This document shows positions 4,000-44,864 of a stretch of 64,000 nt of DNA, piece by piece. Below the pieces are notes generated by a model that saw only the letters and a program-made list of their open reading frames with translations, made no database searches and was not told where the DNA came from. Numbering within the stretch: position 1 is the stretch's first letter; every line of letters starts with the position of its first letter. Source of the stretch: an uncultured Eubacterium sp. (lineage in GTDB: Bacteria; Bacillota; Clostridia; Peptostreptococcales; Anaerovoracaceae); contig UQRM01000006.1 in the NCBI GenBank assembly GCA_900543485.1, positions 1-64,000 on the forward strand, written 5' to 3'. Made by a program: the position numbers and the translations under genes.

Positions 4000-5667
4000 T
4001 TATTCTACTGTTATCCTTCCGTCCGGAGAGGAATACTGTTCTCCTATACTCCCGCCCAGATAGTCGCTGATATAAGTGATCAGTATCTGATAATCCACCA
4101 TACCCTCTTCTACCACCATCTCGTTGCCCGCGAACATGGTAAAGCCGTCGCCGCTCTGACGAAGCATGTAATCATGGGAAGCCAGCGTATATGTCTCATC
4201 CACATCGATAGGCTCATAGCTGCCGTCATCCTGCAGCACTTCCACGTTCTTGACTCTGCGCTGCTGTCCGCACGACACAAACATCCCGTCTTTATCGACT
4301 TTCACTGTAGAATCCACCGATGTATCTATCGTATATCTGAGCCCCGACACCTGAAGGAAGCCTCCGCTCTCCCCCGCTGCCTTCTCACCGTCTCCCGTTT
4401 CCGCCATGGTCGAACGGCTTCCCATCTCCAGCGCGTCCAGTATCTCCTGTCCCGTAGCTTCCACTACACAGAGATGATTGCCGTATGGATGTACCGCCAG
4501 TATATCTTCATACGTTATATCACCTTCGGGCAGATCCGCCCTGATGCCTCCGCCGTTGACGAAGGCGATGTCAGCTCCCGCTATCTGACGGTAGGCGTCG
4601 GCGCAGAAATCTCCCAGATTCGTCTCCCTGTTCCTTATGAGACGCACGCCGTCCTCCGACTCCGTCGTAAGCTCCACATCGCTGCCTGCTATGACCTGCT
4701 GGAGCTCTTCCTCGTATTCGCTCTGTATGTCAGCTATGAAGCTCTCCATATCGCTGTCCTTTTCCTCGAAATCAGATATCAGCCGGGTAGTGATATCGCC
4801 CTCCGGCGTTATGGTAAGCTGCCCTATGTTCTCCAGACCTGTCCCTGAGGAGGAAAGAGGGATCTCCCTTCCCTCTTCATTTTCCACCATATCGCTGTCT
4901 ATCGCGCTGTGAGAATCGCTGTCCAGCACAGCATCTATGCCGCTGGTCCCCGCTATCAGATCTGTCGAACGGAACGGCGCCGAGGATTCGTCATCTCCCA
5001 GATGGGTAAGGGCGATGACATAATCGGCACCTTCCTCCCTGCAACTGTCCACCGTTTCCTGGACTCTGGAATACAACGCTTCTCCGCTGTCCGAGCAGAA
5101 GCTGTAGACGATGTCTCCGTTCTCATCCATGAAGTAGGCCGGTGTCGATTGGCTTATACTCTCGGGAGCCGATATCCCGATGAAGGCCACCTTCGTATCT
5201 CCGTAGTCGACTATTTCATACTGCTGCAGCGCCGACAGCGCGTTCTCGCCGCTGCCTGTATAGTCCACGTTACAGCCCAGATAGGCAGCATCCGACATTT
5301 CCATCAGCTCCGCCAACCGTTCCATCCCATAATCGAACTCGTGATTTCCCAGTACGGCAAAATCATAGCCCACCTTGTTCATGATATCCACAAGATACTC
5401 TCCCTGGGAAATCGTTCCTATGGCGTCACCCTGCAGCGCATCTCCGCAGTCCACCAGCGCAACGTAAGGAGTCTCCTCCTCCACCTGCTTCTTATAGGCC
5501 GCCAGTCCGGCATAGCCGATATTCTCATCTACAGCACAGTACACGTCACCTGTGTAAAGAACGACGATGTCCTGCTGTCCATCGTCGCTTCCGCAGCCTC
5601 CCATAAGTCCGATAAGGAGCGCCAGCAGCAGCGACAGGGTCAATACTTTTACTTTCTTCAGCTTCAT
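4000..5667 (-). CDS. 5'-nucleotidase/UshA-like metallophosphatase lipoprotein, altered metal site
   Basis: This 555-residue exported lipoprotein belongs to the bifunctional UshA/5'-nucleotidase family, which dephosphorylates extracellular nucleotides. The signal peptide ends in a lipobox with Cys25. The N-terminal metallophosphatase domain retains D41, D76 (GDALQG), N108/H109 (GNHEFD) and H222 (THLGD). However, the usual DxH motif reads DVY (Tyr43), and the usual GHSH motif reads S-D-S-H, with Asp251 where a histidine ligand is expected. The C-terminal domain is intact, including TNLGDF at about 350 and the NGGGIR block. The start follows AGGAG that overlaps the upstream stop, three bases away. 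It may be catalytically changed or inactive. It is the last gene of a purine-salvage-like operon. Confidence 0.85.
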   Translation of the reverse strand: MKLKKVKVLTLSLLLALLIGLMGGCGSDDGQQDIVVLYTGDVYCAVDENIGYAGLAAYKKQVEEETPYVALVDCGDALQGDAIGTISQGEYLVDIMNKVGYDFAVLGNHEFDYGMERLAELMEMSDAAYLGCNVDYTGSGENALSALQQYEIVDYGDTKVAFIGISAPESISQSTPAYFMDENGDIVYSFCSDSGEALYSRVQETVDSCREEGADYVIALTHLGDDESSAPFRSTDLIAGTSGIDAVLDSDSHSAIDSDMVENEEGREIPLSSSGTGLENIGQLTITPEGDITTRLISDFEEKDSDMESFIADIQSEYEEELQQVIAGSDVELTTESEDGVRLIRNRETNLGDFCADAYRQIAGADIAFVNGGGIRADLPEGDITYEDILAVHPYGNHLCVVEATGQEILDALEMGSRSTMAETGDGEKAAGESGGFLQVSGLRYTIDTSVDSTVKVDKDGMFVSCGQQRRVKNVEVLQDDGSYEPIDVDETYTLASHDYMLRQSGDGFTMFAGNEMVVEEGMVDYQILITYISDYLGGSIGEQYSSPDGRITVE

Positions 5668-43139: not shown

Positions 43140-43190
43140 ATATTATCAAACTTTCCCGCGCTTTACAATCTATAAGAAATATGGTATCAT
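43140..43190. promoter_or_regulatory. divergent promoters sharing a -35 element
   Basis: On the plus strand TTTACA (43162-43167), 17 bp, then TATCAT (43185-43190) drives the SCIFF gene. On the minus strand TTGTAA (43163-43168), 17 bp, then TAATAT (43140-43145) drives the cyclo-ligase-larB unit. The two -35 hexamers overlap by five bases, so polymerase probably cannot occupy both at once. Confidence 0.7.
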
Positions 43191-43236
43191 TTAATGCGGT
43201 AATATTACAATCAAGAACAGAAAGGTGGGACCACAA

Positions 43237-43383
43237 GTGAAGAGGATAAAAACTTTAGTATCGCGCGATCTGGAAAAATCCGCTAAGACAGGCGGCTGCG
43301 GTGAATGCCAGACTTCATGTCAGTCGGCCAGCAAGACTTCCTGCAGCGTTGCAAATCAGCAGTGCGAGAAGTGCAAGAACTAG
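43237..43383 (+). CDS. SCIFF ranthipeptide precursor (variant cysteine pattern)
   Basis: This 48-residue peptide starts at GTG with AAAGGTGGG upstream. It has the SCIFF N-terminal leader (MKRIKTL) and the core pattern C21-x2-C24-x3-C28, QSASKTSC36, VANQ and C43, plus an extra C46. The family (six cysteines in forty-five residues) is nearly universal in Clostridia and is matured by the radical-SAM enzyme encoded next. In the characterised member CteA the thioether joins Cys32 to Thr37; here those positions are Ser32 and Ser37. The peptide still has six cysteines because of C46. Its biological role is unknown. Confidence 0.93.
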   Translation: MKRIKTLVSRDLEKSAKTGGCGECQTSCQSASKTSCSVANQQCEKCKN

Positions 43384-43427: not shown

Positions 43428-43458
43428 GCTGCATCTTTCTGAGAGATGCAGCTGTTTT
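43428..43458 (+). terminator. hairpin between SCIFF peptide and maturase, likely partial terminator
   Basis: A perfect 9-bp stem GCTGCATCT/AGATGCAGC with a 7-nt loop is followed by TGTTTT. In the gap between precursor and maturase it would let most transcripts stop after the peptide gene. Confidence 0.65.
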
Positions 43459-43487: not shown

Positions 43488-44864
43488 ATGGTACACCAAT
43501 ATAAGATGAATGGATATAACATCGTTCTCGATTCCGAGAGCGGGTGCATACATACTGTGGATGACGCGGCGTACGACGCGATAGAGCTGTACGGGAAGAA
43601 GAAACCTGCAGATGAGATAATCTCCACGATCTCCTCCCGTTACAGCATCAGCACAGCTGAGGTGGAGGAGATACTGGATGATATCGAGGCCCTGAAGAAA
43701 GAGCGCAAGCTGTTCACCGAGGATCTGTTCTCAGGCAGCGCGGAGCTGTTCAAGGAAAGGCAGTCTGTGGTGAAAGCCATCTGTCTCCACGTAGCCCACG
43801 CTTGCAACATGACATGCGAATACTGCTTCGCCGGCGATGGCGAATACAGCGGCCAGCGCGCTATCATGAGCTACGAGACCGGCAAACGGGCCCTTGATTG
43901 GCTCATCGAGAATTCCGGCACAAGAAAGAATCTGGAAGTGGACTTCTTCGGGGGCGAACCGCTGCTGGACTTCGACGTGGTCAAGAAGCTGGTAGCCTAC
44001 GGCCGGATCCGCGAGAAGGAAAGCGGCAAGAACTTTCGCTTTACCCTGACTACCAACGGTATGCTTCTGAGTGACGAGGTCATCGACTTCCTCAATGAGG
44101 AAATGAGCAACGTGGTCATCAGTCTGGACGGACGTAAAGACGTCAACGACAATATGCGCAGGACCCACAGCGGTGAAGGCACTTATGACATCATACTCCC
44201 CGCGTTCAAAAAACTGGCCCAGTCCAGGGGGCAGCGCGATTACTATGTCCGCGGCACTTATACTCACTACAACACCGATTTTGCCAGCGACGTCCTCCAT
44301 ATGGCAGATCTGGGATTCAAAGAGCTTTCCATCGAACCGGTCGTTGCTCCCGCAGATGCTCCATACGCGCTCCGGGAATCGGACATCCCCAAGATGCTGT
44401 CGGAATATGAGCGACTGGCCTGCGAGATGCTGGAAAGGAAACGGGAGGGTAAAGGACGTGATTTCACATTCTATCACTACATGATAGACCTGACAGGCGG
44501 CCCCTGTATCGTCAAGCGAGTATCCGGCTGCGGCGTAGGTACTGAATATGTGGCTGTTACGCCTGCAGGTGACCTCTATCCTTGTCACCAGTTCGTAGGT
44601 GACGAAAAATTCCTGCTGGGCAATATCTACGACGGCATCACCAACAGTCAGGTGTGCGACGAGTTTAAGAGCTGTAACGTCTATTCCCACGAAGAATGCT
44701 CCGACTGCTTTGCCAAATTGTACTGCAGCGGAGGCTGTGCCGCCAACGCCTATCACACTACCGGCTCCATCACCGGCGTATACGATCTGGGATGCCAGCT
44801 TCACAAAAAGCGTATAGAGTGCGCTATAATGCTGAAGGTAGCCGAAATGGAAGAGGACCTGTAA
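43488..44864 (+). CDS. radical-SAM SCIFF peptide maturase (SPASM domain)
   Basis: This 458-residue radical S-adenosylmethionine enzyme forms thioether bonds in the SCIFF peptide (CteB-type). The N-terminal RiPP-recognition region covers about 1-90 (MVHQYKMNGYNIVLDSESG). The radical-SAM cluster is C106/C110/C113 (CNMTCEYC), with GGEP near 155. A SPASM/twitch C-terminus holds many cysteines (SGCGVGTEY, CNVYSHEECSDCF, YCSGGC) for two auxiliary clusters. TCGGAGG precedes the ATG. It lies 104 bases after its precursor. Confidence 0.95.
   Translation: MVHQYKMNGYNIVLDSESGCIHTVDDAAYDAIELYGKKKPADEIISTISSRYSISTAEVEEILDDIEALKKERKLFTEDLFSGSAELFKERQSVVKAICLHVAHACNMTCEYCFAGDGEYSGQRAIMSYETGKRALDWLIENSGTRKNLEVDFFGGEPLLDFDVVKKLVAYGRIREKESGKNFRFTLTTNGMLLSDEVIDFLNEEMSNVVISLDGRKDVNDNMRRTHSGEGTYDIILPAFKKLAQSRGQRDYYVRGTYTHYNTDFASDVLHMADLGFKELSIEPVVAPADAPYALRESDIPKMLSEYERLACEMLERKREGKGRDFTFYHYMIDLTGGPCIVKRVSGCGVGTEYVAVTPAGDLYPCHQFVGDEKFLLGNIYDGITNSQVCDEFKSCNVYSHEECSDCFAKLYCSGGCAANAYHTTGSITGVYDLGCQLHKKRIECAIMLKVAEMEEDL

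Follow-up and report, generated by a model that had tools for sequence, protein, structure and literature searches.

A SCIFF precursor with serine at the cross-link donor position belongs to a class of peptides that keep a conserved CteB-type maturase

Results

Precursor and maturase genes

The window (the whole stretch of 64,000 nucleotides analysed) carries on its + strand, in this order, a promoter-like site, the open reading frame (ORF) of a SCIFF precursor (ScfA), a terminator-like stem-loop, and the ORF of a SCIFF maturase (ScfB). ScfA (43237–43383) has 48 residues, with a leader (residues 1–20) and a Cys-rich region (residues 21–48). As the sequence-only reading of this DNA had described, it aligned to the SCIFF family without gaps, and its profile scores exceeded the cut-offs (TIGR03973, 78.1 bits vs. 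50; PF13165, 79.6 bits vs. 27). The ORF starts with GTG at 43237 and stops at 43381–43383. Another in-frame GTG lies at 43225, but in relatives the codon that corresponds to 43237 encodes Val or Met. The sequence suggests GAAAGGTGG (43220–43228, + strand), 8 bases 5′ of the GTG start, as the likely ribosome binding site.

ScfA presents five of the six canonical cysteines (21, 24, 28, 32, 36, and 43). At residue 32, the site of the characterised donor, the codon is AGC (43330–43332, + strand) and encodes Ser. Residue 37, the acceptor reported in vitro as Thr37, is also Ser (AGC, 43345–43347, + strand); the donor and acceptor of the CteA cross-link are both absent. An extra Cys46 (TGC, 43372–43374, + strand) brings the total to six cysteines, and all these residues agree with the sequence-only reading. 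Residue 34, the alternative acceptor reported for E. coli-made CteA, is Thr (ACT, 43336–43338, + strand). Residues 21–48 contain no Asp, and the residues four positions after Cys21, 24, 28, 36, and 43 are Gln, Cys, Ser, Asn, and Lys.

ScfB (43488–44864, + strand) is a CteB-type radical SAM/SPASM enzyme of 458 residues that scored 730.3 bits on TIGR03974 (cut-off 425). It shares 55.4% identity with CteB over 444 aligned residues, with a phmmer score of 577 bits to CteB 5wgg. The radical SAM CX3CX2C motif (Cys106, 110, and 113; 43803–43826, + strand) is present. The SPASM region (44505–44795, + strand) holds Cys340, 348, 366, 404, 407, 413, 417, and 436, and thus every counterpart of CteB Cys334, 342, 360, 398, 401, 407, 411, and 430 is Cys. 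The adjacent maturase is therefore complete, as had been claimed. At the N-terminus, where a leader-binding RRE domain would lie, the alignment to CteB starts at residue 1, and the PqqD Pfam match reached 20.4 bits, below its cut-off of 23.4. On the model of PapB (NF047865), the maturase of the ranthipeptide freyrasin, ScfB scored 269.9 bits, below the cut-off of 340.

The two genes are separated by 104 bases, counted from the stop of ScfA to the start of ScfB. A TIGR03974 maturase within 500 bases of a SCIFF precursor is the pairing described for this family (PMC5300114), and it is found here. By model score and maturase pairing, 43237–43383 encodes a true SCIFF precursor.

Locus layout

The promoter-like site (TTTACA-17-TATCAT, 43162–43190, + strand) has TG before the second hexamer and matched the consensus at 10 of 12 positions. 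The scan of the region gave four such sites, where shuffled sequence averaged 2.2, and the site is thus only suggestive. Between both genes, a terminator-like stem-loop with an 11-pair stem is followed by TGTTTT (43428–43452, + strand). The terminator scan retrieved two sites in the scanned region (shuffled mean, 1.9). The stem was present in both the minimum free energy and the centroid fold of the intergenic sequence (z −2.24), and 7 of 200 shuffles were equally stable. The stem-loop may reduce maturase expression relative to the precursor; a structure in this position would be in line with production of more peptide than maturase.

The flanking genes lie on the opposite strand, with LarB and 5-formyltetrahydrofolate cyclo-ligase at one end of the pair, and rubrerythrin and a Fur/PerR-like regulator (under the models' cut-offs) at the other. 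LarB and the cyclo-ligase also flank the pair at five other loci. In each of 80 loci chosen by maturase similarity, a precursor precedes the maturase and shares its strand. Among the 14 largest neighbour families listed for the 72 of these loci longer than 6 kb, we saw no tailoring enzyme beside Ser-type pairs (those with Ser32). Apart from the maturase and ORFs antisense to it, only one neighbour family occurred in more than 11 loci. It was found upstream of the pair in 51 of the 72 loci, of both classes (e.g., L080, 3006–4484), and we take it to be an Arg/Lys/Orn decarboxylase-like protein; the window pair has the cyclo-ligase and LarB in its place.

Residues 32 and 37 across SCIFF precursors

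The 80 loci chosen by maturase similarity, together with genome searches and 80 fetched regions, gave 284 loci including the window, which were reduced to 262 distinct precursor–maturase pairs after duplicate removal. The sample is biased towards the relatives of the window, and class counts are not frequencies. Residues 32/37 were Cys/Thr in 109 pairs, Cys/Gly in 105, Ser/Ser in 45, and Ser/Ala in 3, and no mixed class was seen. In other words, Ser32 came with Ser or Ala at residue 37 (48/262) and Cys32 with Thr or Gly (214/262); these are not independent observations. Thus, Ser32 is not an oddity of one genome, and the loss of Thr37, singled out by the sequence-only reading, is shared by the 105 Cys32/Gly37 pairs.

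Cys21, 24, 28, 36, and 43, Ser27, 30, and 35, Thr34, Asn40, and Gln41 were invariant in all 262 pairs, which argues that the core lacking Cys32 is equally constrained. Cys46 behaved differently. It was found in 17 of 45 Ser/Ser peptides, in none of the three Ser/Ala peptides, in 3 of 105 Cys/Gly peptides, and in 1 of 109 Cys/Thr peptides; the Cys32/Gly37 database proteins P0022 and P0047 have it as well. It is commoner in the Ser type, yet it is not conserved there and most members lack it, and 31 of 48 Ser-type peptides have five cysteines. Hence, of the proposed co-variation of Ser32, Ser37, and Cys46, the first two do move together in the 262 pairs and Cys46 does not; with 28 of 45 Ser/Ser and all three Ser/Ala peptides lacking it, a compensating role for Cys46 found no support. 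Public annotation names the Ser-type peptides six-cysteine ranthipeptide SCIFF.

Ser-type holders include Anaerovorax odorimutans, Clostridium aminobutyricum, Mogibacterium, and Alterileibacterium. One order was searched completely: 104 of its 147 genomes had a SCIFF, and five of them were of the Ser type. SCIFFs are widely retained in Clostridia: of 291 genomes drawn from one class, 245 had a SCIFF, and four (G011, G062, G083, and G169) presented two SCIFF matches each.

We also inspected database proteins, taking the best 120 matches each of 790, 519, and 1413 and removing repeats (290 domains in 287 proteins). Among the matches listed, residues 32/37 were Cys/Gly in 164 domains, Ser/Ser in 110, Ser/Ala in 4, and Cys/Thr in 3, so that Ser32 with Ser or Ala at residue 37 was found in 114 of 290, some being the same sequences as the loci. 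None of these listed domains combined Cys32 with Ser37 or Ala37. The exceptions were Arg32/Gly37 (3), Arg32/Ser37 (1), Ser32/Gly37 (1, with two further Cys-to-Ser changes), Ser32/Cys37 (1), residue 37 missing (1), and fragments (2), and another canonical cysteine was missing from a few of the 287 listed proteins. Taken as protein records, these exceptions argue against an absolute coupling of residues 32 and 37. Five rare metagenomic records (P0160, P0164, P0185, P0053, and P0098), four with Arg32 (Gly37 in three, Ser37 in one) and one with Ser32/Cys37, are, judging by their residues, possibly further losses of Cys32.

Conservation of the Ser-type maturases

The residue comparison with CteB that the sequence-only reading had proposed was run on the aligned maturases. 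The three radical SAM cysteines were kept in 48/48 Ser-type, 104/104 Cys/Gly, and 99/99 Cys/Thr maturases (the last set counts CteB), and all eight SPASM cysteines were kept in 48/48 Ser-type maturases. For eight Ser-type maturase pairs, dN/dS ranged from 0.013 to 0.050, and for the five measurable of six Cys-type pairs, from 0.023 to 0.076. These values are rough: several dS were near saturation, the sixth Cys-type pair was saturated, and three Ser-type pairs had sequences in common. On these estimates, the Ser-type maturases are under strong purifying selection, and the constraint on the enzyme appears equal whether or not its peptide has Cys32. The retained cluster cysteines and the low dN/dS together suggest that the Ser-type maturase is in use.

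No maturase residue strictly tracked Ser32 in the alignment of Ser-type and Cys-type enzymes. Val350 and Phe408 (both 48/48 Ser-type) and His439 (45/48) were candidate markers, and all three were also found in 14 of 104 Cys/Gly maturases. Likewise, His401 was present in 45 of 48 Ser-type maturases, yet also in six Cys/Gly maturases.

Origin of Ser32 and Ser37

Ser32 was encoded by AGY in 48/48 Ser-type peptides, whereas Ser27, Ser30, and Ser35 of the same peptides were encoded by TCN (144/144). An AGY codon is one base from Cys TGY, and no single step that preserves Ser leads from AGY to TCN. This difference from the other serines is most simply explained by an origin from a Cys codon, and thus Ser32 probably descends from Cys by a change of TGY to AGY. 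The serine codon class is an imperfect clock, and the invariant Ser35 was AGY in 26 of 105 Cys/Gly peptides. At residue 37, the Ser type presented Ser AGY (35), Ser TCN (10), and Ala GCT (3). A single base change separates AGY from Gly GGY (or Thr ACY), and likewise GCT from TCT. Ser37 probably arose from Gly.

We built a careful maturase tree of 128 rows including CteB, thinned from 251, in which the root was not inferred. The Ser type formed one side of a branch (support 81/71; 84% of 200 bootstrap trees), adjoining Cys/Gly maturases, and the Cys/Thr maturases formed one side of another (90/92; 90%). A third branch (83/66; 82%) held on one side the Ser-type maturases together with the Val350-bearing Cys/Gly maturases, of which the tree included 5 of 14. 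With this modest support, the Ser type is likely one lineage of single origin, and the order of change was likely from Cys/Thr to Cys/Gly to Ser/Ser. A repeated, independent change of both residues was considered and rejected: a quick tree of 132 maturases gave three changes at residue 32, and the careful tree gave one. The pairing of residues 32 and 37 may thus rest on one evolutionary event.

Discussion

What is new here is a peptide that is a SCIFF by score and pairing and that, by its sequence, lacks one canonical cysteine and both residues of the characterised bond. In the literature searched, which included few subscription papers, we found no mention of a Ser32 class of SCIFF.

The comparison with characterised systems is informative. 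CteA/CteB from Clostridium thermocellum (thermocellin) belongs to the same precursor family, and its maturase resembles ScfB in sequence and cluster cysteines; CteA, unlike the window peptide, has Cys32, Thr37, and a Cys32 thioether. Tte1186a/Tte1186 from Caldanaerobacter subterraneus is also a SCIFF precursor with its maturase, and its reported link joins two residues that the window peptide lacks. According to one review, Tte1186a and CteA each acquired one thioether in vitro, from Cys32 to Thr37, and CteA produced with CteB in E. coli was linked from Cys32 to the gamma carbon of Thr34 (PMC8326336). A second review gives the same two acceptor positions (PMC8172795). In these reviews, the donor is agreed and the acceptor is disputed. 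The sequence-only reading had taken the Cys32–Thr37 bond as settled, which these sources do not bear out. Its central point holds: since both reported bonds need Cys32 (PMC8326336) and residue 32 is Ser, neither can form here. As read from the sequences, the known cross-link is impossible in a lineage that maintains its maturase. Ser32 beside an intact and conserved enzyme supports the suggestion that a different topology or chemistry is likely.

Three options can be considered: another donor, another chemistry, or a bond that is no longer needed. We consider another donor the most economical, given that the cluster cysteines are kept, that Cys21 of CteA sits on a cluster of CteB, and that PapB tolerates different spacings. 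In the CteB crystal, core Cys3 (residue 21) occupied the open site of an auxiliary cluster (PMC6231123, PMC8326336), so a cysteine other than Cys32 can reach the cluster. PapB, a related ranthipeptide maturase, is described as accepting Cys-Xn-Asp with n from 0 to 6 (PMC9413430). Its substrate PapA has Cys-X3-Asp motifs (PMC9413430), unlike the window core.

Our best explanation, with a probability of about one half, is that Cys32 was lost in this lineage and that the peptide is still matured by its CteB-type enzyme through another invariant cysteine. The donor Cys32 would have been replaced, probably once, by Ser, and residue 37 would have become Ser, probably from Gly. The Ser-type pair would still be produced, and the enzyme would bind the leader and bond a remaining invariant cysteine, most plausibly Cys36 or Cys28. 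As acceptor, Thr34, Asn40, or Ser32 would serve, all of them invariant and close by. Cys36 lies two residues after Thr34 and four before Asn40, and Cys28 lies four before Ser32, which makes them the nearest candidates. The choice between Cys28 and Cys36 is a guess; the sequence singles out neither. The invariant residues would then hold the essential product, with the Cys32 link of CteA and Tte1186a as one topology of several, or an extra. We infer the continued modification of the Ser-type peptide from sequence. Against this explanation, CteA and Tte1186a acquired a single Cys32 thioether with five other cysteines present (PMC8326336), so the characterised enzymes spared those cysteines under the conditions reported; the same review leaves open whether other cysteines are engaged. 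Moreover, PapB is only a related family.

An unlikely alternative is that Ser32 itself is modified, by hydrogen abstraction followed by addition of Cys28 or Cys36, by conversion to formylglycine, or as an ether. Ser32 is kept in 48/48 loci with a fixed codon class while residue 37 varies, which would indicate selection rather than drift. This conservation is unremarkable where residues 19 to 36 are all invariant in the 48 loci, and one metagenomic peptide (P0053) has Arg32 with Ser37. The Cys28-X3-Ser32 stretch matches PapB sites in its CX3 spacing (PMC9413430), and for anSME, a related enzyme, the target is the beta carbon of Ser or Cys (PMC8326336); no Ser-modifying SCIFF enzyme is named in the literature searched. 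A reversal of roles, with Ser32 attacked by the radical and Cys28 or Cys36 as sulfur donor, would be a thioether topology new for SCIFF. We regard this idea as speculative, together with its broader form, in which SCIFFs may do without the Cys32 link and the invariant residues carry the essential product.

Equally doubtful is that no cross-link forms in this lineage, with the free cysteines acting in disulfides or metal binding and the maturase kept for binding, export, or another reaction. The absence of the Cys32 that both reported bonds need (PMC8326336) would fit. However, the radical SAM and SPASM cysteines are kept in 48/48 maturases under strong purifying selection, and mere binding would not require the three Fe-S clusters that CteB has (PMC6231123).

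A maturase working in trans on another peptide, with the Ser-type precursor as a relic, is much less probable. Genomes with two SCIFF matches do occur (4/291), and our search for a second SCIFF covered the window and the genomes of seven relatives. Within the window, no second SCIFF was found (next best match, E 0.91), and each of the genomes of seven relatives, six of them Ser-type, had exactly one, which leaves no other SCIFF as substrate in those six. The second canonical SCIFF that the sequence-only reading had named as a possible real substrate was thus not found in the window or in these seven genomes. Besides, the Ser-type core is invariant across the type, and the same-strand precursor lies upstream of the maturase in each of the 80 loci. 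Finally, a sequencing error –the misread Cys codon at residue 32 that had been raised earlier– or a pseudogene is excluded in practice, with nothing found in its favour and Ser32 with Ser or Ala at residue 37 recurring in 47 other distinct loci and many metagenomic clusters.

Returning to the preferred reading, another donor in a lineage that lost Cys32, the classes also bear on the disputed acceptor. Residue 37 varies with the loss of Cys32 and Thr34 stays, which leans towards residue 37 over residue 34 as the partner of Cys32, possibly on the strength of one event. Since Thr34 persists even in peptides without Cys32, its conservation alone is no mark of the Cys32 acceptor. Thr37 is not a general acceptor either, because Cys32/Gly37 peptides cannot form the Cys32–Thr37 bond. 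With three natural classes (Cys32/Thr37, Cys32/Gly37, and Ser32/Ser37) and intact maturases, the disputed bond is directly testable, and the product of the Ser type would reveal how the enzyme acts without its sole proven donor.

The Cys32/Gly37 SCIFFs (e.g., from Faecalibacterium) share the core otherwise, and 14 of their 104 maturases carry Val350, Phe408, and His439; Anaeromassilibacillus sp. An172 is among these 14, whose maturases sit nearest to the Ser type. Unlike the Ser type, they keep Cys32, and their Gly37 lacks both a beta and a gamma carbon. The literature searched reports no product for this class. In our sample, it is about as large as the CteA class (e.g., L053 and L056), and a bond to residue 37 would be at the alpha carbon. 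Three loci (L066 near 4669–4935, L150, and L276), all Cys32/Gly37, carry a tandem fusion of two SCIFF leader-plus-core units in one ORF.
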